Assembly (NCBI GenBank): GCA_028712175.1
Contig: JAQTQQ010000010.1
Coordinates: 1-46,248, forward strand
Origin: Candidatus Omnitrophota bacterium
GTDB lineage: Bacteria > Omnitrophota > Gorgyraeia > Gygaellales > Profunditerraquicolaceae
Direction of reading: 5' to 3'
Length of the DNA stretch: 46,248 nt
Made by a program: the position numbers and the translations under genes. The notes below the pieces were generated by a model, which did no database searches, was not told where the DNA came from, and saw only the letters and a program-made list of their open reading frames with translations. This document shows, in pieces, positions 2,992-46,248 of the stretch; the stretch's first letter is position 1, and each line of letters opens with the position of its first letter.

Positions 2992-2993
2992 GG

Positions 2994-3671: not shown

Positions 3672-3700
3672 GAGCTATTATTTACCTTTCTAAAAATAAA

Positions 3701-14795: not shown

Positions 14796-14798
14796 GTC

Positions 14799-15992
14799 CT
14801 ATCTTTTAATTACCCCCCACAGATCAATTATTTCTTTCTTGCGGGGAATTTTCAGGTTTCTGTACGCCGAATGCGGGACTCCGATTACTACAACATCGCT
14901 TAAACGGAGCAATTTTTCTTTTGTAACAAAAGTGTGATCTTGGGCATATTCATCGGAATAATGGACTTTAGCGCCGTGAAACCTTAAAATCTTACCAAGC
15001 TTATACGACAAGGAATCCCGGGTATCATCTATATCGGCCTTAAAAGCCATCCCGAGAATACCGACTTTTATTTTGCTTAAATCATATTTTTCCCGCAATT
15101 TGTTCACCAGAAAATTAGGCAGGCCTTCGTTAATCATCATCGCAGAGTGCCCAAGGAGGAAATTATTATTGCTAAATGCCGCCAGCTGCATTGTGTCTTT
15201 TAATAGGCATGGTCCGGCGGCAAAACCGGCAGAGGGTAAAGTTGCCGCCCTTCCATAACCATCCATCATCGCCTTACGCACCTTTTGATAATCAACATTC
15301 AGACTGTTAGAGATCATATAAAACTGGTTAGTTACCGCAAATTGGATATACCTCCAGGCGTTTGAAAATAGCTTTGTCAACTCGGCTTTTCTTATCGAGA
15401 CCCTGATTATTTTAGAAGCAATCTTGCCAAAAAGCAGGGCTGCTTGATTTTCCGCTTCTTTATTCATACCCGAAACTATCTGAGGTAACTCTCGTAATTC
15501 CCGTATGGCATACCCCTGGATGATCCTTTCCGGGCAATAAGCTATCTTCCAGCCTCTGCCTCCAAGCACCCGGCTTAGCTGTTCGCAGGTATGCGGATAA
15601 ACCGTACTTCTAATTACTATCAACTGTTTTCTAACCAGGAATCTTTTAAATTCATTAAAGATATTCAGGAATTGCTTGACCTTCGGGTTAAGATACTCAT
15701 CAACAGGAGTACCTACCGCAACAATTACAATTCTTGCCTGTGCCACAACTTCAGGACTAGTTTGAATAGATAGATTGCCGCAAGCCAAAGCTTTTTTTAA
15801 CAAAGGTTCTGCATCATATTCGATAAACGGCATTTTACCGCTTTGCACTATCCTCGCATATTTCTGATTAACATCATAAAGAACAACTTTCAACCCCTGG
15901 GAAGCAAACATTATCCCCAAAGGCAAGCCAACATGGCCTAAGCCTCCGACGATAACAATATCATAGACAAATCCGTTCTTTAATTTTGACAT
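14799..15992 (-). CDS. UDP-glucose/GDP-mannose dehydrogenase family nucleotide-sugar dehydrogenase
   Basis: DIVIVGGLGHVGLPLGIMFASQGLKVVLYDVN, VIRSTVYPHTCEQL, YCPERIIQGYAIRELRELPQIVSG, AGPCLLKDTMQLA (catalytic Cys region), GILGMAFKADIDDTRDSLSYKL. Confidence 0.92.
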   Translation of the reverse strand: MSKLKNGFVYDIVIVGGLGHVGLPLGIMFASQGLKVVLYDVNQKYARIVQSGKMPFIEYDAEPLLKKALACGNLSIQTSPEVVAQARIVIVAVGTPVDEYLNPKVKQFLNIFNEFKRFLVRKQLIVIRSTVYPHTCEQLSRVLGGRGWKIAYCPERIIQGYAIRELRELPQIVSGMNKEAENQAALLFGKIASKIIRVSIRKAELTKLFSNAWRYIQFAVTNQFYMISNSLNVDYQKVRKAMMDGYGRAATLPSAGFAAGPCLLKDTMQLAAFSNNNFLLGHSAMMINEGLPNFLVNKLREKYDLSKIKVGILGMAFKADIDDTRDSLSYKLGKILRFHGAKVHYSDEYAQDHTFVTKEKLLRLSDVVVIGVPHSAYRNLKIPRKKEIIDLWGVIKR

Positions 15993-16666
15993 ACACTCTC
16001 CCTGTTCTTCCGAGTAACTAAAGCAAATTTATAGCCATGGATCACTACATACGGACCGTCAAATTTAGAATGCACGGAAGCTTTTATTTTTTTAATGAAC
16101 TCTTTTTTATTTTTGGGGTCCAAAATTAGCCACTTTTGAAATTCTTTCTTAGTAGAAGGCTTGCGTTTCCAAGCCAGGCCGCAGGGAGGAGGCAAACGGC
16201 CGTGCTTAGAGATATAATTTACCGCTTTCTTAAATAAGGATAGGGACGCCTGCTGGCCTCTCCTAAAAACATATTCGCATGAATCAAGCGGAGAAATTGG
16301 AAATCTTTTCACCAATAAGATCTTCCCTGAATCGACAGAAGAGCTCATAATATGAGCGGTAGCGCCATAATGCTTATCTCCGGCAAATAATGCCAGGCTC
16401 GCGCTTCCTCTTCCCGGCCACTCCGGAGGAGCAGGATGAAAATTTATATTCTTCAGCTTAAGCAGCGGTCCTTTAAGAATTTTATCACTTAAAAAATTAA
16501 ATACATACCCTGGTTTTAGAGCAGCGATTTGCGCTTCAGTAATATTCTGTTTGTGGAAGTTGACAACTTTCTTCACAAGAAAGTATTTACGCGCGTAACA
16601 AATGGCTGAATTATTCAGCTTTTCATCATCACCTATAAGTAAAACACAAGAAAGTTTATTTTTCAT
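15980..16666 (-). CDS. Formyltransferase family protein (sugar N-formyltransferase candidate)
   Basis: INFHPAPPEWPGRGSASLALFAGDKHYGATAHIMSSSVDSGKILLVKRFPI carries the Asn-His-Asp layout of 10-formyl-THF-dependent formyltransferases. Confidence 0.82.
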   Translation of the reverse strand: MKNKLSCVLLIGDDEKLNNSAICYARKYFLVKKVVNFHKQNITEAQIAALKPGYVFNFLSDKILKGPLLKLKNINFHPAPPEWPGRGSASLALFAGDKHYGATAHIMSSSVDSGKILLVKRFPISPLDSCEYVFRRGQQASLSLFKKAVNYISKHGRLPPPCGLAWKRKPSTKKEFQKWLILDPKNKKEFIKKIKASVHSKFDGPYVVIHGYKFALVTRKNRESVCQN

Positions 16667-24414: not shown

Positions 24415-26013
24415 TTAAACTTTGCTTATTTTCTTTGATCTTATATCATTCAGAAAAACTATAAAGCCTGCTATTCCCAAAGAAACTAAAGTCATTATGT
24501 AGGGATACCTCATCCTATATAATGATCCGACATTACAAACTACCAGCCCATGCATAAGCATTATATAAGTACAAAATAAGAAAATTATCCAGATTTCAAT
24601 ACGTTTACGCCAATGCCAAAGCGCATAAGGTAAAAATAAGAGAATTAAATATACCGCTATCATTTCATATGCGGCCATCCGGCGCATCAAAGTATTTCCC
24701 GGGTGGCTACCCTCTTGCAGCCATTGATTGGGAAAAGGAGCCAAAAAGACTATCTGGGCTGCCCGAGGAAGATAGGCTAATATGCCCTTGACATTGCCAA
24801 AGCTAATATTACTGTCAATATTGCTCTTTGCCTGGGGACCGGATAAACGAAAACCCTCTCTTGCCAAAGCTAAACTATAAGCTTTCTTCTCAAAAAATAA
24901 CGGAAGCCAGAAAGATCTCTTCCAGTGAAACTTAATAAGGTCATTTCTGATCAACGTATTTACCTTAACTTCCGATTTTCTTGTTAGAGGCTTACTGATT
25001 GTCTGGAGCGGTAAATCCTTAGGGATAGCGATTACCGTATCTTCTTTAAACTTGCTTTCTTCCTGATAGGTATTATCTTTATTCACGGCAGTTAAGATTA
25101 CCCCTTCGCTATCTACGGACTTTTCGGCGATGTATGGGGCGGCGGCGGGCGACTCAGGCATTTCCTTTGTTTCATATTTCTCTTCAACCTCCCACTCCTT
25201 ACTATCTGGAGCTGTGGCGCTATCTTCAAATCCAACCGGGTTTAAATTTGTTTTTAACCTCCCTAACACAATAATTATCAGCAACATGAAGAACAAAACA
25301 AACAGAACTTTCTGCCACGGTATTTCTCCTTTAAATGCCTTCATTAAGTAAATTAAAAAAAGAATAGAAAAAAATAGTTTTATAAATAAATCGATAACTA
25401 CGAGAATATAAGCACGCGCGAACCAAATTAGGATGAATCCACAAATATAAAAGACGATTAAACGACAATTAATGAAGAGCCAGTTCCTTTGCTTATAGAG
25501 CTCTGGGCTAGCCGATAAAACTATGCCCTGGAGAATTAGAAAAATTCCTAATATACTAAAACCATCCCTGTGCCATTGAGCAGTCCATTGGAAGTTAGAC
25601 GGAAAAACTAAGAAAGGCAGAACACACAAAATTGCCTTAGTTTTATTTTTTAGGAATAAATCCAGAAGACCAACCAAAACCAAAGCAGCACTGGCATGCA
25701 AAGCTGCGCTAAATGGAATAAGGATTCTGGGATCAGGTAATATGAAAAAATAAAATATCGACCCAATACCTGCCGGAGACTGGCCGCTGGGCTTTAACTG
25801 CCAAACCGACCAGCCGTGAATGTGAATTTTCTCAGCTAAATCCACGGCTATCTGGTGAAAACCAATGCTATCAAAGGAGCTTTTTAACAACCCGTAACCG
25901 GCGTGTAAATTAGGAAAAATATACGGTAATAAAACAATTTGCACAAACGCAGAAATAAGAAATGCATAAAAGAAGAAAATTAGCCATAATTTAAAGGTAT
26001 TTAATTTATTCAT
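24415..26013 (-). CDS. Multi-pass membrane protein of unknown function with an acidic hydrophilic central insert
   Basis: 532 aa; hydrophobic segments flank a polar insert (FEDSATAPDSKEWEVEEKYETKEMPESPAAAPYIAEKSVDSEG). Overlaps AsnB by 4 nt. Confidence 0.7.
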   Translation of the reverse strand: MNKLNTFKLWLIFFFYAFLISAFVQIVLLPYIFPNLHAGYGLLKSSFDSIGFHQIAVDLAEKIHIHGWSVWQLKPSGQSPAGIGSIFYFFILPDPRILIPFSAALHASAALVLVGLLDLFLKNKTKAILCVLPFLVFPSNFQWTAQWHRDGFSILGIFLILQGIVLSASPELYKQRNWLFINCRLIVFYICGFILIWFARAYILVVIDLFIKLFFSILFLIYLMKAFKGEIPWQKVLFVLFFMLLIIIVLGRLKTNLNPVGFEDSATAPDSKEWEVEEKYETKEMPESPAAAPYIAEKSVDSEGVILTAVNKDNTYQEESKFKEDTVIAIPKDLPLQTISKPLTRKSEVKVNTLIRNDLIKFHWKRSFWLPLFFEKKAYSLALAREGFRLSGPQAKSNIDSNISFGNVKGILAYLPRAAQIVFLAPFPNQWLQEGSHPGNTLMRRMAAYEMIAVYLILLFLPYALWHWRKRIEIWIIFLFCTYIMLMHGLVVCNVGSLYRMRYPYIMTLVSLGIAGFIVFLNDIRSKKISKV

Positions 26014-27984: not shown

Positions 27985-29943
27985 CTACCTTTTCTTAGAC
28001 AGAATAGCCTTGTTTAATATAGCAGCCAAATCATGCGCTTTCGCCTGCAAAGAATATTTACTGGAAACTTTAGATCGCCCTGCTTCTCCCATTCTTTTCC
28101 TTAAATTTATATTCTTATATAATGCAATTAAAGAATCATACCACTGCTGATCAGTTTCCGCCAAAAAACCATTTATATGATTTTCAACGATCTCACTATT
28201 CACTCCGACAGGAGATGCAATAACCGGCAAACCGCAAGCCATATACTGTATTAACTTAAAACCGCACTTTCCGCGAGCCCAAAATGTATCCGGTAGCGGC
28301 ATAATCCCAACATCTAAACCAAGCAGCATCTCTATCTCAGTATTCTCAGACCACTCATGTATTCTAAAATTCCTTCCTATGCCCGGGATATCTCCCGAAC
28401 CAATCAAAACAACTGTAGCTTTATATTCGGAACAAAACCTGTCTAAGATTTTCAATACCGGTTTTAAATAAACCGCAGTTGACTGCGAACCAATCCAGCC
28501 TATTGTAAATTCCTTATTTCCAATAAATTCATAATTTTTAACCGGATAGCGTTCAATATCAATAACCGTGGGCAAAATAGATACGTTCTGATTAACTTTC
28601 TTTGCATAGCTAGACAGATAAAGATTGCCGGCTACCACTAAATCTACCATAGATAACAGTTTCATTATTTTATACCTGAACAATAATCTAACCAAAGCAT
28701 TAGGATGCTGGTCATAATTATGAAAAATCGCATCATCAAAATCATAAACAAAAATTGCCCCGCTCTTCTTAAGCAATCTTTCAAAAATTAGTGGCAAAAG
28801 TGGAGCCGCCTCGCAATGCAAAAAAACAAGATCATAATTCTTCGCCGATAAAATTACTTTCAATCTCCTGGTTAATGCCTTTATAAAATCAAAGATGATA
28901 AACTCTCCCAAATTAAACCGCTTTCTAAGATAACCCTCTTCAAAAAATGAAGAAACTTCGCATTTAACATTGTATTTATCCTTCAGATAAGGAATATACT
29001 GTAAAATCCTATGCCTTGTGCTTGCTGCGTCCTTGGCGTATTTCGGTAAAAATAGAATTCTGGAATTATACAGGCCCGTAAGGGAAGTAACTTCGTCTTG
29101 TGCGGCTAAATCAACCTTTGACCTGTACCCTAAAGCGCACCAATAGGGATACGATTTGCTAAAAACTATATTCTCTAACCCAGCAGCCTTCATCATCCGT
29201 TCAATTTCTTTTGCGGAAAACCTTTTTTCAAGGCGCGTACCAAATCTGTCAAGCGCATCTGTACGCATGGCATAAAAACTTAGATTTTTATAGAACGCTA
29301 AAGGCAGCTTATCAATATTAAACCCGAGCTTCTCCATAATAATTTCAATTTTGACTATCGGGTAATAGACAAAAATTGCCATGGCCTGGCTGATAAAATA
29401 CTTCATAAAAAATGGCAATTTCGATACAAGCATTCTTATTGCATCACTTATCTTCCAAATAAGCCTATACCAACTTGGCCTGTTATCAAATGCATAATAA
29501 AGATAGAGTAGAAACGGGGCGCATGGCTTTAACTTATTTACACAAGATTTTATTCCTGCCAAAGTATCCGGAACATGATGCAATACGCCCAGAGAATAAC
29601 CAAAATCCATGCTTTTATCTTTCAAAGGGATACATTCAACGCTGGCGACATGAAAAACACAATTATTCTTTGCAGAAAGATTGGCCTTTGCTACTGCAAT
29701 GGCTTCGGAGCTGGCATCAATACAATGCAATGTGCCGATTTTATCCGCTACAAGTTTTGACCACCTGCCGCTTCCACAACCAAGGTCAAACCCTACGGCA
29801 GACCTGCCTATCTTATCCCAGGGAAAGATATCAAAGTACTTGGAATAAATAAACTGCAACTCCGATTCGGAGATGCCAGACTGATTGAATTTACGCCATT
29901 CATTTCCAAAACCAATCACTGTTTTTTTATCTAGATTAATCAT
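27985..29943 (-). CDS. Bifunctional fusion: N-terminal SAM-dependent methyltransferase plus C-terminal GT4 glycosyltransferase
   Basis: N-term VGFDLGCGSGRWSKLVADKIGTLHCIDASSEAIAVAKANL...FGYSLGVLHHVPDTLAGIKSCV; C-term SRILFLPKYAKDAASTRHRILQYIPYLKD...FTIGWIGSQSTAVYLKPVL...DVGIMPLPDTFWARGKCGFKLIQYMACGLPVIASPVGVNSEIVENHINGFL, in one 652-aa frame. Confidence 0.9.
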   Translation of the reverse strand: MINLDKKTVIGFGNEWRKFNQSGISESELQFIYSKYFDIFPWDKIGRSAVGFDLGCGSGRWSKLVADKIGTLHCIDASSEAIAVAKANLSAKNNCVFHVASVECIPLKDKSMDFGYSLGVLHHVPDTLAGIKSCVNKLKPCAPFLLYLYYAFDNRPSWYRLIWKISDAIRMLVSKLPFFMKYFISQAMAIFVYYPIVKIEIIMEKLGFNIDKLPLAFYKNLSFYAMRTDALDRFGTRLEKRFSAKEIERMMKAAGLENIVFSKSYPYWCALGYRSKVDLAAQDEVTSLTGLYNSRILFLPKYAKDAASTRHRILQYIPYLKDKYNVKCEVSSFFEEGYLRKRFNLGEFIIFDFIKALTRRLKVILSAKNYDLVFLHCEAAPLLPLIFERLLKKSGAIFVYDFDDAIFHNYDQHPNALVRLLFRYKIMKLLSMVDLVVAGNLYLSSYAKKVNQNVSILPTVIDIERYPVKNYEFIGNKEFTIGWIGSQSTAVYLKPVLKILDRFCSEYKATVVLIGSGDIPGIGRNFRIHEWSENTEIEMLLGLDVGIMPLPDTFWARGKCGFKLIQYMACGLPVIASPVGVNSEIVENHINGFLAETDQQWYDSLIALYKNINLRKRMGEAGRSKVSSKYSLQAKAHDLAAILNKAILSKKR

Positions 29944-34178: not shown

Positions 34179-35600
34179 TCACCTAAGACTTAGCGAAAAA
34201 AGCTCACTGCCGTGATAATTAACTGAAATCTTTAACTTTAATATATTTTCAATTAGTTTCAACCGCGCCTGAATATCCGCGGACTGAAACGGAACATACA
34301 TATTTGGATTATTAAGAAACCTATACTCATCCTGTTTTGTTTTCAAAAACGGCCGGACTAGCTTCTTTACTCCCTGCGTCGCTTGATAAGTAAACTCATC
34401 AAGCGCATGAATTAAAAGCGACGAAGACATATAATGACGTCCTGACAGCCTATCTGCTTCCAAAACAAGCTCTATAAAATTTTTTAGGCCATTATCCGTA
34501 TTAAAGTTATCAATCAGCTCATTTAAAAACAATCCCCGCCAGTCCTTGGATAAGACTTTCGTTTTTGACTCTTTTTGCGTTAAAAATTCTTTTACCGCCA
34601 GCAGTACCTCTTCCTGCTTTACGCATTCTCTCCCTACTTGATTGGAAAGCACATGGCCATACTGCGGATCCGATACCGGCTTATAGCTGATTATGTTCGC
34701 ACCTAAAAAATAAGCCTCAATAGCGGTAGTGCATCCATTATGGATAAGTGTTTTACTCGCCAATATCCAGGGAACCACGCTCCCCTCATGCACAACTTTA
34801 ATATTGCGGACTCCGTCAAATATAGTACGGTACATACGCGAATCCTCGCAGGGATGCGGCCTGACAATAATGTTTGTATTAGGGAATTCAAGACTCAAAA
34901 TATTTATTAAATCGATAAAATCGGCAAATATCTTGTTTTCCAACGACCAGCGTTTCAAATACTGCTTTCTAGCCGTCAAATCATTAATCAGGTATCCGAA
35001 GTAGGAAGTAAAAATTTTCGTTGGCCCAAGGCCATAATTGGCGTAGACAAAATTTGTATTTACCAAAATAAAATCACCATATTTACTTTTCAACTCGTCA
35101 GCCTTAGGCTGAAAGTAATCCCTGAAGGGAGGCTTGTACAAATCGAATTTAGGATACCCTACGGTACGAATATGTTCACTACAAGCAGGCGTAAGGCTGC
35201 GATAATAAGCGTTTTGATAATTTCCCCATGTGCAGATAAAATCGTCCTTGGAGAGGACACGCGGGTCCAGCCTTCTGGAAAGACAGCTCTTCCAGCCTTC
35301 ATCCATGCCATAGTAGACCGCTCCCTCCTCATCCAAGTGAACCAAAACAAACCCATTTTTTTTAATCGCCATATAGCGCTCAATATTAGAAAATGGCCAC
35401 TCCTCACGAAAAATATTTTTACCGATATATACCCCCCCACGCAGGTATTTTGTGAGCCGAAATATCGCATCATGCTGTCCAACAAAAACCCGGTTGCTCT
35501 TCTTCAGGCACATACAAGCAAGAAAAAGTTTATAATCCAATTCTCGGTTTATTATCTCTATAGGGAAAAGTATGGGTGTTTTAGAGTCCTGCATAGCCAA
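34179..35600 (-). CDS. Surface carbohydrate biosynthesis protein (uncharacterised glycan-cluster family)
   Basis: PIEIINRELDYKLFLACMCLKKSNRVFVGQHDAIFRLTKYLRGGVYIGKNIF; TNIIVRPHPCEDSRMYRTIF; KVVHEGSVVPWILASKTLIHNGCTTAIEAYFLGANIISYKPV (RPHP plus HNG.T..EA, GT-B-like). Recalls the 'surface carbohydrate biosynthesis protein' family. Confidence 0.72.
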   Translation of the reverse strand: MAMQDSKTPILFPIEIINRELDYKLFLACMCLKKSNRVFVGQHDAIFRLTKYLRGGVYIGKNIFREEWPFSNIERYMAIKKNGFVLVHLDEEGAVYYGMDEGWKSCLSRRLDPRVLSKDDFICTWGNYQNAYYRSLTPACSEHIRTVGYPKFDLYKPPFRDYFQPKADELKSKYGDFILVNTNFVYANYGLGPTKIFTSYFGYLINDLTARKQYLKRWSLENKIFADFIDLINILSLEFPNTNIIVRPHPCEDSRMYRTIFDGVRNIKVVHEGSVVPWILASKTLIHNGCTTAIEAYFLGANIISYKPVSDPQYGHVLSNQVGRECVKQEEVLLAVKEFLTQKESKTKVLSKDWRGLFLNELIDNFNTDNGLKNFIELVLEADRLSGRHYMSSSLLIHALDEFTYQATQGVKKLVRPFLKTKQDEYRFLNNPNMYVPFQSADIQARLKLIENILKLKISVNYHGSELFSLSLR

Positions 35601-37044
35601 TAATCCCTTTCAGTTTATCTTTTATCGGCAAGTAACATACCCCTACACAAAGAAAATAGGTAAACAATTTAATTGCCAAGAAAACATATTTGTTCAAGGT
35701 TATAGGAGGAATAATTGATGTAATGTACCCTGCAAAAAAACAAACCCCCAAGAAATAAGCAATAAATTTCAAAGCCCTCAAATAGTTTATTTTAACATCA
35801 CTGCAAAAAAGAAGATAAAAAGTAATAAATATGGAAATATAGCTCATAGCTAAAAGCGAGTAAGCAAATCCCAGCACCCCCAGTTTAAATATGTATATGA
35901 ATAAGGATCCGAACACTAAAAGACAAACGATGTTGCAGGCATATACCATTGCCGTATTCTTAATTTTATCAATAACCTGAAACATACGAAAAGCCGGAAC
36001 TCCGACTACTCCCGGCAATATCGACAGAGCATATACCGATAATGAAGCAGCCAAAAGATCTCCGGAGGCAGTATCGAATTTACCATACCGAAAGAAAACA
36101 GTAATAATATCCTGGGCGCAGAAAAAAATAAAACTCATTACAGGTATGGCAATCATTGAAAGACCGATAATCACCCTTTCTAACCTGGCGTTTCTACTAT
36201 TTTTTAAAGCTAGCGGAACCATAAATATATCGCGAAAAGTAAGTAAACCGCTTACATTGGTGGTCAATTGAGCGGAATACGAAAGCACAGTAACGCCTCC
36301 TTGAGGCAAAAAAGACTGCATAAAGCGCTCCACGATTAAATATAAAGATGATATCTGATTTGTACCAAAAAGCTGGCTAAAATTCCGATAAAAATGCCGC
36401 ATCTCAATAGTTGTAATCTTGCCGAAAAGGTCAAAATGCCTAAAAGCATTGACAAATAAAAGAATAAAACCTGACAGATAACCTGCAAAATAAGCCAAAG
36501 GGATAGCTGTTGTATTATTATGAAACAAAAGAATTGAAAACAGCGAAACGGCAGATATGATAAATTCACCAAAAAACACTATATTAAATAAACGGATACT
36601 TTTATAAAATGAGCATAAAGCTAGGTAAGGAAGAAAAAATAATATCCAGGGAAGAAAATAAAAAGAGATCTGATATACCTTGCCTTTATCGGATGCGGAA
36701 AAACCTGCTGCCATGAAATGAATTATAATTGGCATGGCCAAAACGAATAGCACCCCAAGAAAACAGGAAAATATCAAAGAAAAGGTAAATATTGATCCCG
36801 CGAATTTCCGGAATACCGCATCACCTTGTTCTTCCTTGCATTTAACCAAATGCGGGATACCGACAGTGTCAAAAATCACAGCAAAACCAAATACCAGCAG
36901 ATTGGCGGCAGTAAAGGCCATAAAATATACATCTAATTCCCTGCTGGCACCAAAATTAGTTGCAATAAAGATCTGCCTAGCCAACCCGAAGAGCTGGACA
37001 ATAACACTGACTCCAAACGCATTAACAAGTGCTTTAAAAAACAT
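35581..37044 (-). CDS. MurJ/Wzx-type lipid-linked glycan flippase (MOP superfamily)
   Basis: About 14 hydrophobic segments; VIVQLFGLARQIFIATNFGASRELDVYFMAFTAANLLVFGFAVIFDTVGIPHLVKCKEE is MurJ/MviN-like. Confidence 0.85.
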   Translation of the reverse strand: MFFKALVNAFGVSVIVQLFGLARQIFIATNFGASRELDVYFMAFTAANLLVFGFAVIFDTVGIPHLVKCKEEQGDAVFRKFAGSIFTFSLIFSCFLGVLFVLAMPIIIHFMAAGFSASDKGKVYQISFYFLPWILFFLPYLALCSFYKSIRLFNIVFFGEFIISAVSLFSILLFHNNTTAIPLAYFAGYLSGFILLFVNAFRHFDLFGKITTIEMRHFYRNFSQLFGTNQISSLYLIVERFMQSFLPQGGVTVLSYSAQLTTNVSGLLTFRDIFMVPLALKNSRNARLERVIIGLSMIAIPVMSFIFFCAQDIITVFFRYGKFDTASGDLLAASLSVYALSILPGVVGVPAFRMFQVIDKIKNTAMVYACNIVCLLVFGSLFIYIFKLGVLGFAYSLLAMSYISIFITFYLLFCSDVKINYLRALKFIAYFLGVCFFAGYITSIIPPITLNKYVFLAIKLFTYFLCVGVCYLPIKDKLKGIIGYAGL

Positions 37045-37269: not shown

Positions 37270-38037
37270 CTATATTTTTTCCCTGGCAATAACTAATTTA
37301 CCGTTCTTACGAATATGGAAACAGCCATCTTTATTAATAATAGAATTGACCTCCTTAAGAACTCTTTTTTCAGCTGCGGGATCAAAAAATGTCGCTGAAC
37401 GGTAAAACCTGGCAAAATCATTTACGTCTGTTACAAATTGATCATTGATAAAAATATGTGATTCAATATTTCGGAACCTTTTATTACAAAATGGTAAAAC
37501 GCAGTCGTCAATAAACTTCAAACAATCCCAGGAAAGCTGGGGTATATCGTGAAATCGAGATAAAAAGCTTAACAGTGTATTAGTTTCATACGGCCCAGAA
37601 ATCGCCAGTGAGCCGGACGGCTCAAGAAGTACGAACATTGCCTCAAGCACGCTATTTATATCACGCGCATAATAAAGCGAATAAGAACTGTGCACCAAAT
37701 CAAATTTAATATTGCCAAAATTATCCTTAACTACCGAAATCAGTTCATCCATGGAACCAACACACGTTTCAACCGAAATACCGGCCGGTAACGAAGATTT
37801 AAGCTGGGAGATGGAACTTTCTGATATATCGAAAGCACAGGTCTTTCCTCGGCTTAAAACCTTCCTGCCAAACCATACAGCCTGAGCTCCTGTTCCGCAG
37901 CCAACATCAAGTACCGTGCAAAACGGAATCGAAGATAAATGCCCGGTAAGCCAAGATAAAAAATCCGCACGAGAATATTTCGCATTAAAATCTAACCGTT
38001 CATTAAGAAAGGAACTATTCGTCGCTCGTTTATTCAT
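37270..38037 (-). CDS. Class I SAM-dependent methyltransferase
   Basis: CTVLDVGCGTGAQAVWFGRKVLSRGKTCAFDISESSISQLK...FDLVHSSYSLYYARDINSVLEAMFVLLEPSGSLAISGP. Confidence 0.88.
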   Translation of the reverse strand: MNKRATNSSFLNERLDFNAKYSRADFLSWLTGHLSSIPFCTVLDVGCGTGAQAVWFGRKVLSRGKTCAFDISESSISQLKSSLPAGISVETCVGSMDELISVVKDNFGNIKFDLVHSSYSLYYARDINSVLEAMFVLLEPSGSLAISGPYETNTLLSFLSRFHDIPQLSWDCLKFIDDCVLPFCNKRFRNIESHIFINDQFVTDVNDFARFYRSATFFDPAAEKRVLKEVNSIINKDGCFHIRKNGKLVIAREKI

Positions 38038-38039
38038 AA

Positions 38040-38705
38040 TTACCCTCTCATATCGCGGATCAAACGAAAAGACTCAGCATATTCCAACCCTACCGTCAAT
38101 CCCTGATAATGCGCATACGCGCGTATGGCCTTGGAACTACGAGGATGAGGGTATAGCCGGCATTCAGTCTTATAACATTTCATCGCACGAATTTTGGTTT
38201 CAATCTCTTCCGAAATATCCAGAAAAACGTTCGGTACAAAAATGTCGTCTTTTTCATATCGGTTCCATTCGGTTGAGGACGCAACCATATAAGTATAAAG
38301 CGTTTTTACCTGTTGACCGGGAAGAGGCCGACAAGCAGTAATAGTAGCATCGTAGATAATACGATGGTCGATATTCAAATCGCGGCCGTGATGAGTAAAT
38401 ACGCAATCTACTCCTAACCGTTTGATATATCTTTCGATAGCCTTGATTATACTAGTAATTGAAACCTCATCGAGCTTCTGATTAGGAAAATCCTCAAAAA
38501 ACACATTTGATGCACCTATAACCTTATTCGCGGCAAGTGCGTATTTGGCTAGCGCCTTTTTCTTTGCTGGTTTATACCTGCCTGTGGCACCATCGGTTAA
38601 AATAAGGGAAAAGCAATTAACACCACGTTTTTGCATTTTAGAAATAAAACCGCCACAACCCAAGATTTCATCGTCAGGATGAGCGGCAACAATAAGAACA
38701 CTCAT
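38040..38705 (-). CDS. PIG-L/LmbE family N-deacetylase
   Basis: VLIVAAHPDDEILGCGGFISKMQKRG (AHPDDE) and FTHHGRDLNIDHRIIYDATITACRPL (HxxDxNxDH). Confidence 0.95.
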   Translation of the reverse strand: MSVLIVAAHPDDEILGCGGFISKMQKRGVNCFSLILTDGATGRYKPAKKKALAKYALAANKVIGASNVFFEDFPNQKLDEVSITSIIKAIERYIKRLGVDCVFTHHGRDLNIDHRIIYDATITACRPLPGQQVKTLYTYMVASSTEWNRYEKDDIFVPNVFLDISEEIETKIRAMKCYKTECRLYPHPRSSKAIRAYAHYQGLTVGLEYAESFRLIRDMRG

Positions 38706-39355
38706 AGGTCCTCCGCTTTGTAAATCTTTAAAATATACTTTTTACCCTTAAACAAGAAATACAGCGGATAACGCTCATTATCCGCCACTCTCATAATATT
38801 AAACTGGCTTCGAATACTTTGGAAAATATTAAGTTGATTATCTGCTGGAGTGCGCCGGCGATAATATGTTGCGGCTCCTTTCTGGGGTTTAGCGCGCATG
38901 GGGTACTTAGAAAGGTATCTATCAATCATCTCTATTGTCTTGGCTGCCTGTTTACGCCGGATATCCTCAATTAATTCCGTTCCGTCAAGTAAAATATAAT
39001 CTTTCAAATAATAATCTCCGGAATCACAGTCAACAAAAGCATCAAAAAGGGTCACCGGAATCTTCATCTTACCCATTGCTGCCTGCCAGGTCATAGGCGA
39101 CCACCCCCGCCCCCGAGGTAAATCACTCTCGTGAACAACAATATTATGTTTATTTAAAATCAACGTGCTCTTCTTTAGAATCCGGTCGCAGCTAATCAGA
39201 AAAAGTATATCTCCGGAACGAACATCTCGGCTATTCCGCACAATCCGGATGTGTAAATCATATTTACGCAGCATTGCCTTTAAATCATCCAAGTAATAGT
39301 TAAACCAGCTTCCGGGATTGTCTATAAGAATCGATAATTTCAAAGATTTTTTCAT
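38702..39355 (-). CDS. Formyltransferase family protein linked to the NulO-like cassette
   Basis: KHNIVVHESDLPRGRGWSPMTWQAAMGKMKIPVTLFDAFVDCDSGDYYLKDYILLDGTELIEDIRRK: Asn-His-Asp arrangement (N..H.SxLP-like, then DSG). ATGA overlap with the deacetylase. Confidence 0.82.
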   Translation of the reverse strand: MKKSLKLSILIDNPGSWFNYYLDDLKAMLRKYDLHIRIVRNSRDVRSGDILFLISCDRILKKSTLILNKHNIVVHESDLPRGRGWSPMTWQAAMGKMKIPVTLFDAFVDCDSGDYYLKDYILLDGTELIEDIRRKQAAKTIEMIDRYLSKYPMRAKPQKGAATYYRRRTPADNQLNIFQSIRSQFNIMRVADNERYPLYFLFKGKKYILKIYKAEDL

Positions 39356-40316
39356 TACTCCCCCAAAAATTAAGATTAGATAATGTCAGGTGATAATCAG
39401 AAATCCCATCTATGACTTTCGATAACCCTGCAAGTATAACATCCGCATCTACCTTATCCTGTTGCCCCAAATAATACGCCCAGCCGCACTTGGCATAATA
39501 CTGACAACGTTTAACTTGATGCGGATATGATGCGATTAAGAGCGCAGGCGTATGAGAAGCTATAAGTTCAGACGAGGTTAACCCCCCTGCTGAAAAAGCT
39601 ATATCCGCCCAAAGATAATCTGTAAACAAATTACACGAATTTTCCTTAAACATAACTCCGGCAAACCCAGTAGCCCGCAGCTTATATCCCGGCCCGGCAA
39701 TGACCCGTACCTGGTAATTTTGGCGAAGGCGTGAAATTACTTCCAAAATCCGGCCCGTAAGATCAAATTCATCAATACCGCCCATTGTAATAAGAATACG
39801 TCTAGCCACAGTACTATAAGTACGGTTGGCAATAAGACGGCGATCAAGATAATCAGGCAAGACGGTATTTTCAAAACCTTTCAAAACCACTACATCAGAA
39901 TGGCCGCTATATGCCTCATCTGCCGCATCAATGCACCAATTCACCACAAGGTCAAAATCTCCGGACAAGACTCCATCAAAATTAACACAGGCCATTATGG
40001 GCGCCGGTCTTCCCAAAGCTGCATAAGCACTTAAAGGCTGGCCGGTCACTTCCATGAAAAAACAGTCCGCAGAAATATCAATACATATGCGATTAACTTG
40101 GTAAATCTCCTGCGCTATGCTTGAACCGCTGGGTACCCAACTAACATTCTCTAAAGCGAGGTTATGCACAATACGTTTGCTTGCTTCAAAATCGCGAACT
40201 GCAAAATAACAACCCCACCCCCTAGCCCGGAATAAAGAACTTAAGTAAATAAGAGACATTAAATCTCCCGTCCCGACTGTTTTGTGAGCATCCGCCCTAA
40301 AAAGAATATTAGGCAT
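39300..40316 (-). CDS. PseG/SpsG-like protein (UDP-sugar hydrolase or GT-B-like), divergent active-site motif
   Basis: Start set at MPNILFRADAHKTVGTGDLMSLIYLSSLFRARGWGCYFAVRD (ATG 40316; ORF track starts at 40433); RRILITMGGIDEFDLTGRILEVI; DIAFSAGGLTSSELIASHTPALLIASYPHQ. Gene order NeuB-PseG-like supports the call. Confidence 0.78.
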   Translation of the reverse strand: MPNILFRADAHKTVGTGDLMSLIYLSSLFRARGWGCYFAVRDFEASKRIVHNLALENVSWVPSGSSIAQEIYQVNRICIDISADCFFMEVTGQPLSAYAALGRPAPIMACVNFDGVLSGDFDLVVNWCIDAADEAYSGHSDVVVLKGFENTVLPDYLDRRLIANRTYSTVARRILITMGGIDEFDLTGRILEVISRLRQNYQVRVIAGPGYKLRATGFAGVMFKENSCNLFTDYLWADIAFSAGGLTSSELIASHTPALLIASYPHQVKRCQYYAKCGWAYYLGQQDKVDADVILAGLSKVIDGISDYHLTLSNLNFWGSNEKIFEIIDSYRQSRKLV

Positions 40317-41385
40317 GAAATACAGCCTCCCAGCTAATAGGTTCTTCAAAGCCGATGTCTCGGGAAGCGTGGATACGGTAATTCCGGAACAGTTCCAGAT
40401 ATTTCGGCTCCAAGCCGGCTTTCTTTTTGCCAATACGCAGAATTTTCAAATCGCGGTGGCATATCCGTTCCCCCTTCTTAATATCGCGCCCAGCAAAAAT
40501 TGTCGAATAACAGAAATTACGCATATATACCTCATGCGAATAAACAATTTTCTTGCATGAACCATAGAGGGTTTTATTAATACGTGTTTTTCCCCCAACC
40601 GCATTTTTCTCTGCAGAATGAATATCTGCCACCATACGTTTTAGTTCGCAGGGGGTAAGCGCAAAAAAATGGTCCGGACCGGGCAATGATTTATTAAGCG
40701 TAATGTGCTTCTCTATAATCCGAGCGCCAAGATAGACAGCCTGGACCGGGGCAATCGAAACTTCCTTAGTATGGTCAGAATAACCAATAGTATTTTCCGG
40801 AAAAGCGTAACGCAGAGTTTCAATAACTCCAAGATTACAATCACGAAGTGCTGTCGGGTATTGTATCGAACAGTGGAGCAATGAAAGATTATTATGAAAC
40901 TTATTGATAATAGCAACCGCATCAAAAACTTCATTGAGCATTGCCCCACCGGTAGAAAGGATAATCGGCAATTTATACACAGCCGCCTTCTCGATAAGCG
41001 GAATATTGGTAATTGAATACGAAGTAATTTTTATTTTTTTCAATCCTAATCCAACCATAAAATCTAATCCCCAGGGATCAGAAACCGAAGTCAAGAATTC
41101 CACTCCACAGCTCCGGCAATATTTCATCAGCTTGGGTATCCACGACGTAGCCAATTCGCATCTTTCAGCAGCAGAATAAATATTATATGAATATTTCTTT
41201 TTCGCATCTTTCCAGTCGAGTTCTCCTGCGCTTCGCGGATACAGATAGCGAGCTCTAAAAAGCTGGAATTTTGCCGCATCAGCACCAGCGGCAGCAACTG
41301 CATCGATCAACCGCAGGCAGTTTTCAAATGATCCGTTATGATTAATCCCTATTTCAGCTATAGTAAAAACCTTGTTTTTTTGCAT
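40309..41385 (-). CDS. neuB: N-acetylneuraminate/nonulosonic acid synthase (NeuB/PseI/LegI family) with C-terminal SAF domain
   Basis: FTIAEIGINHNGSFENCLRLIDAVAAAGADAAKFQLFRARYLYP, PLIEKAAVYKLPIILSTGGAMLNEV, LLHCSIQYPTALRDCNLGVIETLRYAFPENTIGYSDHT, ARIIEKHITLNKSLPGPDHFFALTP. SD GGAGG upstream of the ATG. Confidence 0.93.
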   Translation of the reverse strand: MQKNKVFTIAEIGINHNGSFENCLRLIDAVAAAGADAAKFQLFRARYLYPRSAGELDWKDAKKKYSYNIYSAAERCELATSWIPKLMKYCRSCGVEFLTSVSDPWGLDFMVGLGLKKIKITSYSITNIPLIEKAAVYKLPIILSTGGAMLNEVFDAVAIINKFHNNLSLLHCSIQYPTALRDCNLGVIETLRYAFPENTIGYSDHTKEVSIAPVQAVYLGARIIEKHITLNKSLPGPDHFFALTPCELKRMVADIHSAEKNAVGGKTRINKTLYGSCKKIVYSHEVYMRNFCYSTIFAGRDIKKGERICHRDLKILRIGKKKAGLEPKYLELFRNYRIHASRDIGFEEPISWEAVFHA

Positions 41386-41414
41386 TAAAAAACCTCCGAA
41401 CCCGGAACTCTACA

Positions 41415-42287
41415 TTAATTATTAGTATTCTTATAGAAAAGACTTTCCTTATGCCATCTCCTAAAAAAATCTACCACATCAAGGTAGTTATCTTTACGCC
41501 AAATATTCTTTTTACTCATTTTTCCTTTCCTGGCAATTATGCATAAAATATCACTGTCTATGTAACTATTTTCAAAAACCACTTTGAAACCGGTTGCAGA
41601 AAGTAACCCGCGTAAGCTTTGAGCGCTGAATCTAAACGAATGGGTATCGCTTGGATTTTTACTTAGATACTTTCCTAGGGGCTTTTTAAAGGGAACTAAA
41701 ATCCTACTTCCCGTAGCAATGACTACATATCCATTAGGGCTCAGTATTTTTCTGGCGCCAAATAACATATCCTTACAAGAGAGGCAATTCTCTAATGTCC
41801 AGAGTAATGCAACAATATCACTTTGATTTTTTTTATGGGCAGCCCCATAATCCTCAATGGTTCCCTGAAAATAAGGAATTTTTAAACGGGATAGAATCTT
41901 ACAATTCATGCCTGAAGGCTCAATCCCAAATACGCAAGCGCCATACTCTTTGCGAATAATATCCAGGAATTGCCCTTCTCCCGCTCCTATTTCAGAGACC
42001 TTTTTATTTTTTAAGCCTATATTTTTATCGATAAAATCAGCTACATATACTTGCCGCGCCTTAACCGCGGGAATATGAGCAGTATATCCTTTTCCGAAAA
42101 TTTCATTGGACCAGCTATTGGCAATTTCTAAAGAGCTGCGCCTGTCTCTGACATACACAAAACCACATTCCTTACAAATATGTATCGGCTGATTACCCGT
42201 ATAAAACCTAGCAAAAGGAACTTCAACAGCATCGGAACTTCCGCAGATATCACAAGGAAACCGGTCAAAATTTATTTTCTTCTTCAT
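41415..42287 (-). CDS. Class I SAM-dependent methyltransferase with N-terminal zinc-binding motif
   Basis: RFPCDICGSSDAVEVPFARFYTGNQPIHICKECGFVYV; KVSEIGAGEGQFLDIIRKEYGACVFGIEPS; SDIVALLWTLENCLSCKDMLFGARKILSPNGYVVIATG. Start at MKKKINFDRF preferred over the ORF-track start 42377, which overlaps the upstream gene. Confidence 0.84.
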   Translation of the reverse strand: MKKKINFDRFPCDICGSSDAVEVPFARFYTGNQPIHICKECGFVYVRDRRSSLEIANSWSNEIFGKGYTAHIPAVKARQVYVADFIDKNIGLKNKKVSEIGAGEGQFLDIIRKEYGACVFGIEPSGMNCKILSRLKIPYFQGTIEDYGAAHKKNQSDIVALLWTLENCLSCKDMLFGARKILSPNGYVVIATGSRILVPFKKPLGKYLSKNPSDTHSFRFSAQSLRGLLSATGFKVVFENSYIDSDILCIIARKGKMSKKNIWRKDNYLDVVDFFRRWHKESLFYKNTNN

Positions 42288-42349
42288 CTGGCCCTTTCTA
42301 GGATAATTTATCCTGTAAAATACCCAATTATTTAATTGCTCACCTTCAA

Positions 42350-43513
42350 TTACACCAAAGGATACCTTAATTTCCATTCCCCATTTTCATTTTTCCAGAT
42401 TTCCGGATTCCTATGTTTATCAACAATCTCAAGGAATTCCCTCTCTGAAAGCTGTAAATACTGCAGCATATCCTGTAAATAAAGGGCCGGAAACTCGTGG
42501 TCATATTTACGAGAAAGCTCCAAACCTCTTTCTCTGGTAAGCTGGCGGTTCTGTATCATACGGCTAGCATCCCTGACTACCCTGCCAAACCCAAACTTAA
42601 TATATTGCAGATAATAATACAGGTTATCTGATTTATCATCAAGGCTGTCAAAATCGGTAAAGGTCCCTTCCGTCCTCCCAGCGGGACAAGTATGAAAATC
42701 AAACTTATCCTTTACATAAAGATAGTTTTCATAACTGCTCCATTTAAAGAAATACCCGAAATAAAACGCCTTAATACCTACTTTACTGACCTCATCAATA
42801 TCAGGATAAATATAGGGATTTAAATCTTTGGCAGAAATCTCCTCATCTACCCAATTCCGCGGATCATCTCCAATTTGATGTTCAATAACTTCCGTAAAAT
42901 CCCTTATTTTTTTTGCATCTTCATGGAGAATTTTTCCACCATACTCGCTTTCCCCATGTTCAGCATAGAAAATTAGAGGTATACCCAGCTTAACGGCAAA
43001 CTTAACAGGAATTGTGTTTATGCCCGCATCCCAGGCGACTTTTTGATTGCCTCTTTCGATAAAGAAACGCTTAGAAAGTCTTCTATGGACTCTCTGGTCG
43101 GGACGGAAAAATAAATGATCAAAGCCGCACTGTATCAATGCCTCTCGGTTATGATTGCCGACTTCTGTAGGAACCTGCGGCGAAAATGTAACAAGAAGCG
43201 GATTCATCTTGAATTCAAATTTCAGCCGGTATGCGACATAGCTGCTGTCTTTACCTCCGCTCCAGGGAACAATACAGTCCCAGTTCCCATTTTTAGACCG
43301 ATAGGCATTTAACAGATCATCAAACTCTTTTCTGCGGGCATCCCAATTAACACTATCCCATTTCTCCGCAGCATGATTACACGCATTGCATACACCCAAA
43401 GCATCAAAGGTTACCCGAGGGCGTGTATTAGGCATGAGGCATTTTTTACAATAAAAAATTTCTCTTCCGCTTTTTTCTCTTTCCTGATCTCGATTTACAT
43501 AATTGTTTTTCAC
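42350..43513 (-). CDS. N-acetyl sugar amidotransferase (WbpG/PseA-like, PP-loop ATPase)
   Basis: YCKKCLMPNTRPRVTFDALGVCNACNHAAEKWDSVNWDARRKEFDDLL; DCIVPWSGGKDSSYVAYRLKFEFKMNPLLVTF; HCFPAGR-like THCPAGRTEG region reads HTCPAGRTEGTFTDFDSLDDKSD. GTG start preceded by SD AAGGAGG. Confidence 0.93.
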   Translation of the reverse strand: MKNNYVNRDQEREKSGREIFYCKKCLMPNTRPRVTFDALGVCNACNHAAEKWDSVNWDARRKEFDDLLNAYRSKNGNWDCIVPWSGGKDSSYVAYRLKFEFKMNPLLVTFSPQVPTEVGNHNREALIQCGFDHLFFRPDQRVHRRLSKRFFIERGNQKVAWDAGINTIPVKFAVKLGIPLIFYAEHGESEYGGKILHEDAKKIRDFTEVIEHQIGDDPRNWVDEEISAKDLNPYIYPDIDEVSKVGIKAFYFGYFFKWSSYENYLYVKDKFDFHTCPAGRTEGTFTDFDSLDDKSDNLYYYLQYIKFGFGRVVRDASRMIQNRQLTRERGLELSRKYDHEFPALYLQDMLQYLQLSEREFLEIVDKHRNPEIWKNENGEWKLRYPLV

Positions 43514-43530
43514 TAAATCCTCCTTAGAAA

Positions 43531-44277
43531 CTATACCCTTACATCAATACCTGAATGAGCGAGAAACTGTTTTGCGCTTCGAATACTTGTTTCTGTAAAG
43601 TGATAAATATTCGTTGTGCACACCGCCTGCGCTTTGCCAAGCTTAAAACCATCGACAAAATCCTGCCACTTTCCTACTCCCCCGCTAACCAATACAGGGA
43701 TATCGATAGCCTCAGAGACAATTCTGTTTAGATAATTATCATAACCTTCTAGGGTGCCATCACGGTCTATGGAGGTAAGCATAATCTCTCCGGCTCCGGA
43801 AGCCTGCGCTTTTCTGGCCCAAGTAACAACGTCCAAACCCGTAGCTTTATTCCCAAATTCAGAAAATACTTCGTAATCCCCGGAGGGCATTCTTCTGGCA
43901 TCAATGGATACGACAACGCACTGAGAACCAAACTGCATTGCTGCTTCCCTGATAAATTCGGGACGGCGCAAAGCTTCAGAATTAATGATAATCTTATCCG
44001 CACCGAAACGTAATAAACGCTTAAAATCATTAATAGTTCTAACCCCGCCACCCGCAGCAAGGGGAACAAAACAATTCCGGGCAAAATCACTTACGACAGT
44101 AAAAAAATGATCTTTGCTGCCTTGCCCAAACCTGGTTATGTCCAAAACCACGATCTCATCTATTGACCAAGCATCGACAAAATTCAAAGTATATCTATAA
44201 TCAGGAATAAAATTCCTTGTCCTGAATAAAACACCGTCATTAAAAGTCAAAACGGTAATAAGGCGGTTTTTCAGCAT
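43531..44277 (-). CDS. HisF-like cyclase-subunit homologue (amidotransferase partner, HisF2 type)
   Basis: RLITVLTFNDGVLFRTRNF...DEIVVLDITRFG, PLAAGGGVRTINDFKRLLRFGADKIIINSEAL, QCVVVSIDARRM, GAGEIMLTSIDRDGTLEGYDNYL, PVLVSGGVGKWQDF. Confidence 0.93.
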   Translation of the reverse strand: MLKNRLITVLTFNDGVLFRTRNFIPDYRYTLNFVDAWSIDEIVVLDITRFGQGSKDHFFTVVSDFARNCFVPLAAGGGVRTINDFKRLLRFGADKIIINSEALRRPEFIREAAMQFGSQCVVVSIDARRMPSGDYEVFSEFGNKATGLDVVTWARKAQASGAGEIMLTSIDRDGTLEGYDNYLNRIVSEAIDIPVLVSGGVGKWQDFVDGFKLGKAQAVCTTNIYHFTETSIRSAKQFLAHSGIDVRV

Positions 44278-44885
44278 AGCGAAAGAAAATTATTCAAAAG
44301 CTTTAATCCGATTGACTGGCTCTTCTCCGGATGAAACTGGGTTCCAAAGATATTATCCTTATGGAAAGCAGCTGTAAACTGTATTCCGTATTCACATTCA
44401 GCAACGATAGCTTGTTTTTCTTCGCAACACACATGAAAACTGTGTACAAAATAAAAAAGCTCGTTTGATAAAATTCCCGTAAAAAGCGGGTCTTCCTTTA
44501 TCAAAACAATCCCATTCCATCCTACGTGAGGAATCCTTAAATTCGTCCCAGAATTAAGTTTTTTGACCGAAGCATTTATCCATCCTAACCCCTCATGTTT
44601 TCCGAATTCATAGCTTATTTTTGCCATAAGCTGGCTTCCTAAACAGATACCAAGGATTGGGGTTTTCTTCTCAAGGACGGATTGATTCAAGCATTCAATT
44701 AGGCCCAAAGAATGCAGGTTTTTCATTCCATCGCCAAAAGCGCCGACGCCCGGCAGGATAAGTTTATCCGCGCTTAAGATCTCTTCTTTATCATGCGTCT
44801 CAAAAGGAAGATAGCCGAGCTTACTCACCGCACCAGATACCGACCTTAAATTACCTAGACCATAATCAACTATAGCAACCTTCAT
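44271..44885 (-). CDS. HisH-like glutamine amidotransferase (HisH2 type)
   Basis: Start at MKVAIVDYGLGNLRSVSGAVSKLGY (ATG 44885; ORF track starts at 44984); LILPGVGAFGDGM, PILGICLGSQLM (catalytic Cys), GLGWINASVKKL, FGTQFHPEKSQSIGLKLL (His/Glu). Confidence 0.94.
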   Translation of the reverse strand: MKVAIVDYGLGNLRSVSGAVSKLGYLPFETHDKEEILSADKLILPGVGAFGDGMKNLHSLGLIECLNQSVLEKKTPILGICLGSQLMAKISYEFGKHEGLGWINASVKKLNSGTNLRIPHVGWNGIVLIKEDPLFTGILSNELFYFVHSFHVCCEEKQAIVAECEYGIQFTAAFHKDNIFGTQFHPEKSQSIGLKLLNNFLSLC

Positions 44886-44886
44886 A

Positions 44887-46248
44887 TTAATGTTTCTCTT
44901 TGACTTTAAACACCTTTTTCCAATCGTTAAAAACGAGCTTTTTGTATTCGCTGCGATCATACGTTCCGCTTTTACCCCATCCAAACCAATGATTTATTGG
45001 CGCACTAAAACCCCGCTTATCCACTCGGCAAGCAATTTCTTTAGGAATAAACTTCTTGGCGATTCTTTTTAAGATCCATTTTGTAATACCGTTTTTGATC
45101 TTATACTTCTGAGGTATGCTAAAAGCAAAACAGATTAAACGATAATCGAGAAACGGTGCTCTATTCTCAACGCTAAAAGCCATATTTATCCTATCGGAGA
45201 ACTGCAAAAGCTCTTGCATCGTAGTATAGAGGTCACATGCCCCCATAGAATGAATATGTTTAAACTTCATTTTTGAAAAGTAAAATTCCACTGCCTCTTC
45301 AAGGAAACTTTTTATCCTTCCATTATAACGGTTTTCGCATCTATTAATTAAACGCGCGTATCTTTCAACAGAAGAACCATAATAACGGTTAATTAAATAT
45401 GAGTAGCTATCAAGCGCCTTCAAATTCTTTATTTGTTCATCGTGGTTTAAAAGATGATACCGGTGATAACCCGAGAATAGTTCGTCAGCACCGTCACCGG
45501 AAAGAACAACTTTGATATCTTTTGAGGCGCGCTCAAGGAGCATCCATAGACTAAACGAAGTCCATGTGCACGGCGTGTCCAGATGATAAGCGATTTTTTC
45601 CCTGGTACGGGTAAAATCTTCGGATACGGGGTTTATAACAATGAGCTGTTTTTTAATCTTTTTTGCAACCAACCGTGCGTAATAAATTTCATCGTAACCG
45701 GAAACAGGATAATGACAGGTGTAAATGTAATCCGGGCGCGCTATACAAGCAATTAAAGCACTATCAACGCCGCCGCTAATAAAAGTGCCAAATTTGTGTA
45801 CACAATTTCTCGTTCTTAATTGTATGGAGTCGACGATTAAATTAGTAAGTTGAATTTCAATTTTCTTGAGGTTATCCGGGACCGAAATTAAATTATCCCA
45901 AACTTTCCAATATGACTTTTTCTTAAAAGTTAAATCTACCGCATTAACTATTATATAATCTCCCGGCATAAGGCAATAAATACCTTTAAAAAGAGTCTCC
46001 TCTCCGACATTAAATTCAAATGCTTCGTAGGAAAGGCAATTTTCGTTTAAATGCGGTTCTATAATTTTAAGAAGTGCCTTAATTTCACTGGCAAATGCGA
46101 AAAATTCATCAGTATAGATATAATAAAGAGGTTTTTCACCGGCACGATCACGTACCAAATATAGCTCTCTTTTAATCTTATCAAATATAGCAAAAGCATA
46201 CATACCATTATAATCAGAAAACGAATCTACCCCTTTCTCTAAATAATG
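44887..46248 (-). CDS. asnB: Asparagine synthase family amidotransferase, N-terminus cut by the right edge of the window
   Basis: Open frame extends past the ORF-track start 46203 to the edge (HYLEKGVDSFSDYNGMYAFAIFDKIKRELYLVRDRAGEKPLYYIY); GTFISGGVDSALIA, VVLSGDGADELFSGYHRY, ENRAPFLDYRLICFAFSIP, VDKRGFSAPINHWFGWGK. Confidence 0.92.
   Translation of the reverse strand, partial: HYLEKGVDSFSDYNGMYAFAIFDKIKRELYLVRDRAGEKPLYYIYTDEFFAFASEIKALLKIIEPHLNENCLSYEAFEFNVGEETLFKGIYCLMPGDYIIVNAVDLTFKKKSYWKVWDNLISVPDNLKKIEIQLTNLIVDSIQLRTRNCVHKFGTFISGGVDSALIACIARPDYIYTCHYPVSGYDEIYYARLVAKKIKKQLIVINPVSEDFTRTREKIAYHLDTPCTWTSFSLWMLLERASKDIKVVLSGDGADELFSGYHRYHLLNHDEQIKNLKALDSYSYLINRYYGSSVERYARLINRCENRYNGRIKSFLEEAVEFYFSKMKFKHIHSMGACDLYTTMQELLQFSDRINMAFSVENRAPFLDYRLICFAFSIPQKYKIKNGITKWILKRIAKKFIPKEIACRVDKRGFSAPINHWFGWGKSGTYDRSEYKKLVFNDWKKVFKVKEKH

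Follow-up and report, generated by a model that had tools for sequence, protein, structure and literature searches.

Nonulosonic acids (NulOs) influence how cells are recognized by the immune system, how phages bind, and how flagella function; the epitope is determined by their N-acyl groups. Amidination and N-methylation are both known for legionaminic acid (Leg): the Legionella pneumophila O-antigen and Campylobacter ptm systems make Leg5Am7Ac and the N-methyl form Leg5AmNMe7Ac with a NeuB-type synthase, a WbuX-type amidotransferase (PtmG), and a methyltransferase (PtmH), and neither a formyltransferase nor a PIG-L deacetylase is mentioned there (PMC3766260). An archaeal 5-N-formyl-legionaminic acid is known from Halorubrum sp. 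PV6, whose Leg cluster includes a formyltransferase gene and uses a NeuC-type LegG; the accessible part of that report mentions no PIG-L, WbuX, or AsnB (PMC6137143). The Campylobacter pseudaminic acid (Pse) locus (pseB, C, F, G, H, I, and A, with HisH/HisF) combines an amidination set with PseG and NeuB homologues. Here we describe a run of ten minus-strand genes in a Candidatus Omnitrophota bacterium (assembly GCA_028712175.1, contig JAQTQQ010000010.1) that resembles parts of each of these systems. The window analyzed is the entire contig (46,248 bases), and the genome to which it belongs measures 1.26 Mb and is 95 per cent complete.

We put at roughly 60 per cent the probability that this run is most of the operon for one amidinated, formylated, and methylated NulO belonging to the surface polysaccharide encoded on the contig. 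A first-pass annotation, made from the letters alone, had proposed such a product, with an N-acetyl group removed and replaced by N-formyl. The module is real, coherent, and recurring. The core of that idea holds; the idea as a whole is partly supported, with corrections concerning PIG-L, the PseG-like protein, and the truncated 5′ end. Open reading frame calling together with Pfam and NCBIfam scans confirmed the existence, coordinates (37270-46248), and order of the ten genes, and reproduced their overlapping ends:

44887-46248, minus strand: AsnB-type glutamine amidotransferase, 5′-truncated by the contig end (PF00733, Asn_synthase, 210 bits; TIGR01536, 274 bits)
44271-44885, minus strand: HisH-like glutaminase, start codon inferred (TIGR01855, 238 bits against a cut-off of 105; GICLGSQ and FHPEKSQ motifs)
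43531-44277, minus strand: HisF-like protein of the WbuZ type, partner of HisH (His_biosynth, 178 bits; TIGR03572 WbuZ, 236 bits)
42350-43513, minus strand: WbuX/WbpG/PtmG-type N-acetyl sugar amidotransferase, predicted to form acetamidino groups (TIGR03573, 330 bits against a cut-off of 203)
41415-42377, minus strand: MT_A, class I methyltransferase between WbuX and NeuB (Methyltransf_23, 48 bits)
40309-41385, minus strand: NeuB-family NulO synthase, nearest the SpsE type (PF03102, 232 bits; structure 1vli)
39300-40316, minus strand: PseG-like protein with Asp replacing the catalytic His17 (TIGR03590, 64 bits against a cut-off of 154; fold match)
38702-39355, minus strand: probable N10-formyl-tetrahydrofolate-dependent sugar N-formyltransferase, FMT217 (PF00551, 22 bits; 1zgh, E=1.7e-12)
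38040-38705, minus strand: PIG-L/LmbE N-deacetylase of a NulO-linked subfamily (PF02585, 80 bits against a cut-off of 28)
37270-38037, minus strand: MT_B, class I methyltransferase (Methyltransf_31, 51 bits; weak relatives in two NulO loci, L086 and L131)

HisH and HisF overlap by 7 bp, NeuB and the PseG-like gene by about 8 bp, the PseG-like gene and the formyltransferase by 56 bp, and the formyltransferase and PIG-L by 4 bp; for WbuX and MT_A, a start at the first ATG gives an overlap of 28 bp. The remaining gaps in the run measure 1-29 bp, and 225 bp separate its end at MT_B from a MurJ-type flippase gene. The contig terminates within AsnB, so the run is truncated at its 5′ end. Catalytic motifs are intact in NeuB, PIG-L, the formyltransferase, HisH, and WbuX.

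In the proposed pathway, NeuB would condense a 2,4-diamino-hexose with phosphoenolpyruvate, as its family membership and conserved residues suggest. Together with HisH/HisF, of which HisH would supply ammonia, WbuX would convert an N-acetyl to an acetamidino group; members of its family are known to do so in Legionella and Campylobacter. MT_A would probably methylate the amidine as PtmH does, given its position. The formyltransferase would formylate the amine that a sister locus (genome G402) apparently acetylates, as the gene swap described below suggests, and PIG-L, optional in this clade, may strip an N-acetyl and free the amine for re-substitution. Upstream genes (a cytidine monophosphate (CMP)-sugar synthetase, radical SAM protein, aminotransferase, and dehydrogenase-like protein) probably lie past the contig end. 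Going by sequence, the most likely product is a (methyl)acetamidino, formamido NulO, in which acetamidino, formyl, and methyl groups would be combined on one molecule.

The first-pass annotation had named co-occurrence across genomes as one check on its idea, and the outcome supports it. We scanned one genome per species with the PIG-L alignment and took the best 80 of 140 loci, which is not a census; they span many bacterial phyla as well as archaea, and neighbor counts are lower bounds because many of the contigs are short. Within 10 kb of PIG-L, at least fifty of these loci held NeuB, forty-five a formyltransferase, thirty-six a PseG-like gene, thirty-six a cytidylyltransferase, and seven WbuX. 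As a yardstick only, about 0.02 NeuB would be expected per 20 kb (eighteen matches in about 19 Mb of nine other genomes). NeuB, PIG-L, and formyltransferase co-occur far beyond chance. Where PIG-L scored at least 300, NeuB, PseG, or the formyltransferase was nearby in forty-seven of fifty-one loci. A frequent layout is dehydratase, aminotransferase, cytidylyltransferase, PseG, formyltransferase, PIG-L, and NeuB, without PseH (e.g. L066, L073, L075, L078). The formyltransferase directly adjoins PIG-L on the same strand in 35/80. This adjacency bears on whether the two enzymes act on an unrelated polysaccharide sugar and stand in the run by chance. The contig is indeed rich in other sugar enzymes, a second formyltransferase among them, but the adjacent pairs were found in loci picked by PIG-L alone and lie mostly inside NulO operons across phyla, and G402 has an acetyltransferase in exactly that slot; we consider a chance placement very improbable.

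Within the phylum, a search of 386 genomes with the formyltransferase gave twenty-one with a match; apart from the row of the window itself, eight match rows are strong (39-61 per cent identity). PIG-L, formyltransferase, and NeuB stood together in seven of the fourteen neighborhoods read (L032, L036-L041), one of which (L037) additionally has WbuX-HisH-HisF and a Pse-associated methylase. The formyltransferase itself is weakly matched by Formyl_trans_N (PF00551), below the cut-off of 26.1, with further ArnA-type and 1zgh matches. Its label began with these remote matches and was later backed by profile comparisons and by conservation of His75 and Asp111, which are invariant across fifty-four aligned rows. 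PIG-L belongs to the PIG-L/LmbE family: the HPDDE and NIDH (distal zinc) motifs are near-invariant in eighty-nine rows and are kept in the window.

The amidination genes are equally recognizable. WbuX has the SGGKDS PP-loop and the CxxC...CxxC tetracysteine expected of an N-acetyl sugar amidotransferase, and matches the structure of the Legionella amidotransferase LpNASAT (8wex; PMC10607449) with E=6.6e-64. HisF has WbuZ as its best NCBIfam match (236 bits, below its cut-off of 300), ahead of HisF (227 bits). Two further and stronger His_biosynth genes lie side by side on contig C16 of the same genome and are likely the histidine-pathway copies, which makes the HisH/HisF of the run a dedicated second copy. 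In independent lineages (L037, L065, L079, L119, L140), WbuX/HisH/HisF joins PIG-L and the formyltransferase. The first-pass annotation left AsnB unexplained; this protein may amidate the carboxyl of a sugar. MT_A is a candidate amidine N-methylase, PtmH-like only in its position beside WbuX and NeuB, and a 50 per cent identical copy adjoins NeuB in the sister locus L148.

The same genes could instead serve two sugars, with WbuX/HisH/HisF and AsnB modifying another amino sugar (e.g. an amidinated or amidated uronic acid) and NeuB, the PseG-like protein, the formyltransferase, and PIG-L making a separate NulO. Sets of WbpG, HisH, and HisF also form ManNAc3NAmA in P. aeruginosa. In the Pse cluster of Tannerella, an AsnB protein is grouped with genes for uronic acids (PMC6120980), our contig has a UGDH, DegT, and second formyltransferase group at 13692-16666, and one sister locus (L029) has AsnB, the PseG-like gene, and the formyltransferase with no WbuX or NeuB. 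Against this, WbuX, MT_A, and NeuB remain together in L148, WbuX adjoins NeuB or pse genes in each of the five lineages just listed, and amidination of both Leg and Pse by the WbuX family is already established (PMC3766260). We judge a division between two sugars unlikely.

Three sister loci are of the window type. In G402 (L148), from the same family, the order is cytidylyltransferase, radical SAM, DegT, UGDH-like, AsnB, HisH, HisF, WbuX, methyltransferase, MT_A, NeuB, PseG-like with Asp, and WecD-type acetyltransferase; the run from AsnB to the PseG-like gene matches the window order. In this locus the radical SAM gene is broken between the ends of two contigs, and its two halves are the ground for taking the contigs as adjoining. 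Formyltransferase and PIG-L are both absent from it, and the acetyltransferase occupies the formyltransferase slot, from which we infer that in the window the formyltransferase takes the acetyltransferase's place. G363 (L028) has a cytidylyltransferase, radical SAM, DegT, a fusion of NeuB to the Asp-bearing PseG-like domain, formyltransferase, UGDH-like, and WbuX. G185 (L029) has radical SAM, DegT, UGDH-like, AsnB, PseG-like with Asp, and formyltransferase. Because such genes stand upstream in these loci, the lost upstream end of the window run probably held the cytidylyltransferase and aminotransferase. AsnB has full-length copies in L029 (69 per cent identical to the window) and L148 (67 per cent identical to that of L029), and HisH is 54 per cent identical to the L148 copy. 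WbuX in L148 (13986-15166) is split over two overlapping frames, by assembly error or frameshift.

The loci also bear on how the formyl group would be installed. A formyl group in place of an acetyl group on a NulO is supported by the acetyltransferase of G402 in the formyltransferase slot; a removal step by PIG-L is optional, since the pathway core does without PIG-L in L028, L029, and L148. Acetyl removal followed by formylation, as first annotated, is only one option, given that L028 and L029 carry the formyltransferase with no PIG-L nearby and that formylation of an aminotransferase-made amine needs no deacetylase. On the other side, the close formyltransferase-PIG-L pairing of the wider set argues that many organisms would de-acetylate the other amine and then re-acylate it.

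NeuB has B. subtilis SpsE (1vli, E=2.9e-74) as its best solved relative. It retains every fully invariant residue of sixty-one aligned NeuB rows, and its invariant or near-invariant set includes E11, K39, K119, S122, H205, E225, H227, and R317, which places it in the family. Assignment as a PseI or NnaB equivalog was rejected (NnaB 265 against a cut-off of 400, PseI 206 against 340). The PseG-like protein has Asp18 at the position of His17, the catalytic residue of C. jejuni PseG, which is near-invariant in our alignment. His is kept in forty-one of forty-five aligned PseG rows and is missing from those of the window, L029, and L028 (which was aligned twice). Asp also stands at this position in L148, and a G-x-G-D motif is common to these four loci. 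A nearby His (H11, RADAH) was considered as a replacement and dropped; it is kept in the window, L028, and L029 and is Gly in L148. An AlphaFold2 (AF2) model of the protein (pLDDT, a per-residue confidence score, 83) gave PseG (3hbn, 3hbm) as the top Foldseek matches, indicating a GT-B fold nearest PseG, though the fold match is not fully independent because the input alignment included true PseGs. The label 'PseG-like' began with a remote sequence match and was later backed by fold and profile comparisons. In L028 a single protein of 705 amino acids (2345-4459) joins NeuB to such a His-less domain.

The set resembles the sps system of Bacillus subtilis (SpsC, D, E, F, G, M) in its SpsE-like NeuB, its PseG-family protein, and the cytidylyltransferase of the sister loci; SpsE, SpsG, and SpsF make up the Leg pathway there (PMC7439481). 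It differs in that amidination, formylation, and PIG-L are not described for sps, and in that SpsG is needed for Leg while the window protein has no PseG catalytic His. The SpsE-like NeuB also sets the run apart from Legionella and ptm, and the run has no PseH, PseB, or PseC of the Campylobacter pse kind.

Four results weigh against a single modified NulO. The PseG-like protein scores well below its family cut-off and, with Asp at the catalytic position, does not qualify as a PseG hydrolase. PIG-L is not near the formyltransferase in L028 and L029, nor is it in L148. At L029 there is no NeuB, the nearest lying on another contig of that genome at 35 per cent identity. Last, no CMP-NulO synthetase was found in the 1.26 Mb, 95 per cent complete genome; candidates outside the run were only KdsB, GlmU, and IspD and were rejected. 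Other parts of a CMP-NulO pathway, a dehydratase and DegT, lie elsewhere on the contig, and a cytidylyltransferase is present in sister loci.

In a further rival reading the run makes no NulO: its NeuB, and its PseG-like protein without the His, would have diverged towards a different condensation or transfer reaction. Asp at His17 in four loci, a genome whose only CMP-sugar synthetase is of the KdsB type, and Ser at the Glu134 equivalent of NeuB would fit. We consider drift improbable: NeuB keeps all its fully invariant residues, and a cytidylyltransferase accompanies NeuB and the Asp-bearing PseG-like gene in L028 and G402, which supports the NulO reading. The Glu134 site is variable (Glu in 36/61) and was given little weight as a functional marker. 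The same peculiarities allow that the window-type clade makes a chemically new class of NulO, e.g. one built from an amidated hexose of the uronic-acid type instead of a 6-deoxyhexose, with formyl replacing acetyl. That suggestion, which we regard as doubtful, draws on a PseG-like protein that lacks the catalytic His and is linked, as a fusion or otherwise, to a NeuB without the Glu134 equivalent, and on the AsnB, radical SAM, and dehydrogenase-like genes, the last lacking its usual Cys in two of three relatives. These UGDH-like proteins (L029 2687-4048 and L148 18204-19541) lie beside DegT and AsnB without the GGxCxP catalytic motif; the L028 relative retains the Cys.

The formyltransferase-deacetylase pair recurs in NulO operons across many bacterial phyla and archaea. 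It predicts N-formyl, possibly de-N-acetylated, NulOs in many organisms and offers a gene signature for finding them. We found no description of the pair in NulO synthesis, in a literature search that covered subscription journals poorly and is weak evidence on this point. In the pseudaminic locus of the cultured Campylobacter volucris (L065), where the prediction is directly testable, the order is PseF-like cytidylyltransferase, PseG, PseH-like, formyltransferase, PIG-L, and PseH, with HisF, HisH, and WbuX on the opposite strand; the second PseH scores above the TIGR03585 cut-off. Leaving aside the extra PseH-like gene and the inserted pair, L065 follows the order of the C. jejuni pse locus, which has PseH only and is not known to carry a formyltransferase or PIG-L. 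The formyltransferase-PIG-L pair of L065 is flanked by the two similar PseH-type genes (2387-4695), with a run of nine Gs at 2849-2857 before the formyltransferase; the G-run and PseH pair are possibly a phase-variable acyl switch on the flagellin sugar. Related genes are probably listed elsewhere as methionyl-tRNA formyltransferase, and we infer that a case in C. coli clade 2 (PMC12102941) may be such a misannotation.

Outside the run, the contig codes for polysaccharide machinery, with glycosyltransferases, two Wzy-like proteins, a PglF-like dehydratase, DegT, UGDH, the second formyltransferase, and many methyltransferases. Two genes follow the run directly:

35581-37044, minus strand: MurJ-type flippase, likely exporting polysaccharide units (PF03023, 74 bits)
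34179-35600, minus strand: TIGR04396 surface carbohydrate protein, candidate NulO transferase (TIGR04396, 320 bits)

A 36 per cent identical relative of the latter comes after the NulO genes of L079. The second formyltransferase (15983-16666) overlaps a UGDH-type dehydrogenase (14802-15992) near a LegC-like DegT aminotransferase (13692-14795), and this group probably makes a separate N-formyl amino sugar. At 27985-29943, one protein contains both a methyltransferase domain and a glycosyltransferase domain of the GT1 type. Large proteins of 532 and 693 amino acids (24415-26013 and 8577-10658), also within the polysaccharide cluster, have no Pfam match. Finally, a B12-binding radical SAM protein lies at 6443-7840, and similar proteins recur near the NulO operons L031, L038, L039, and L040.

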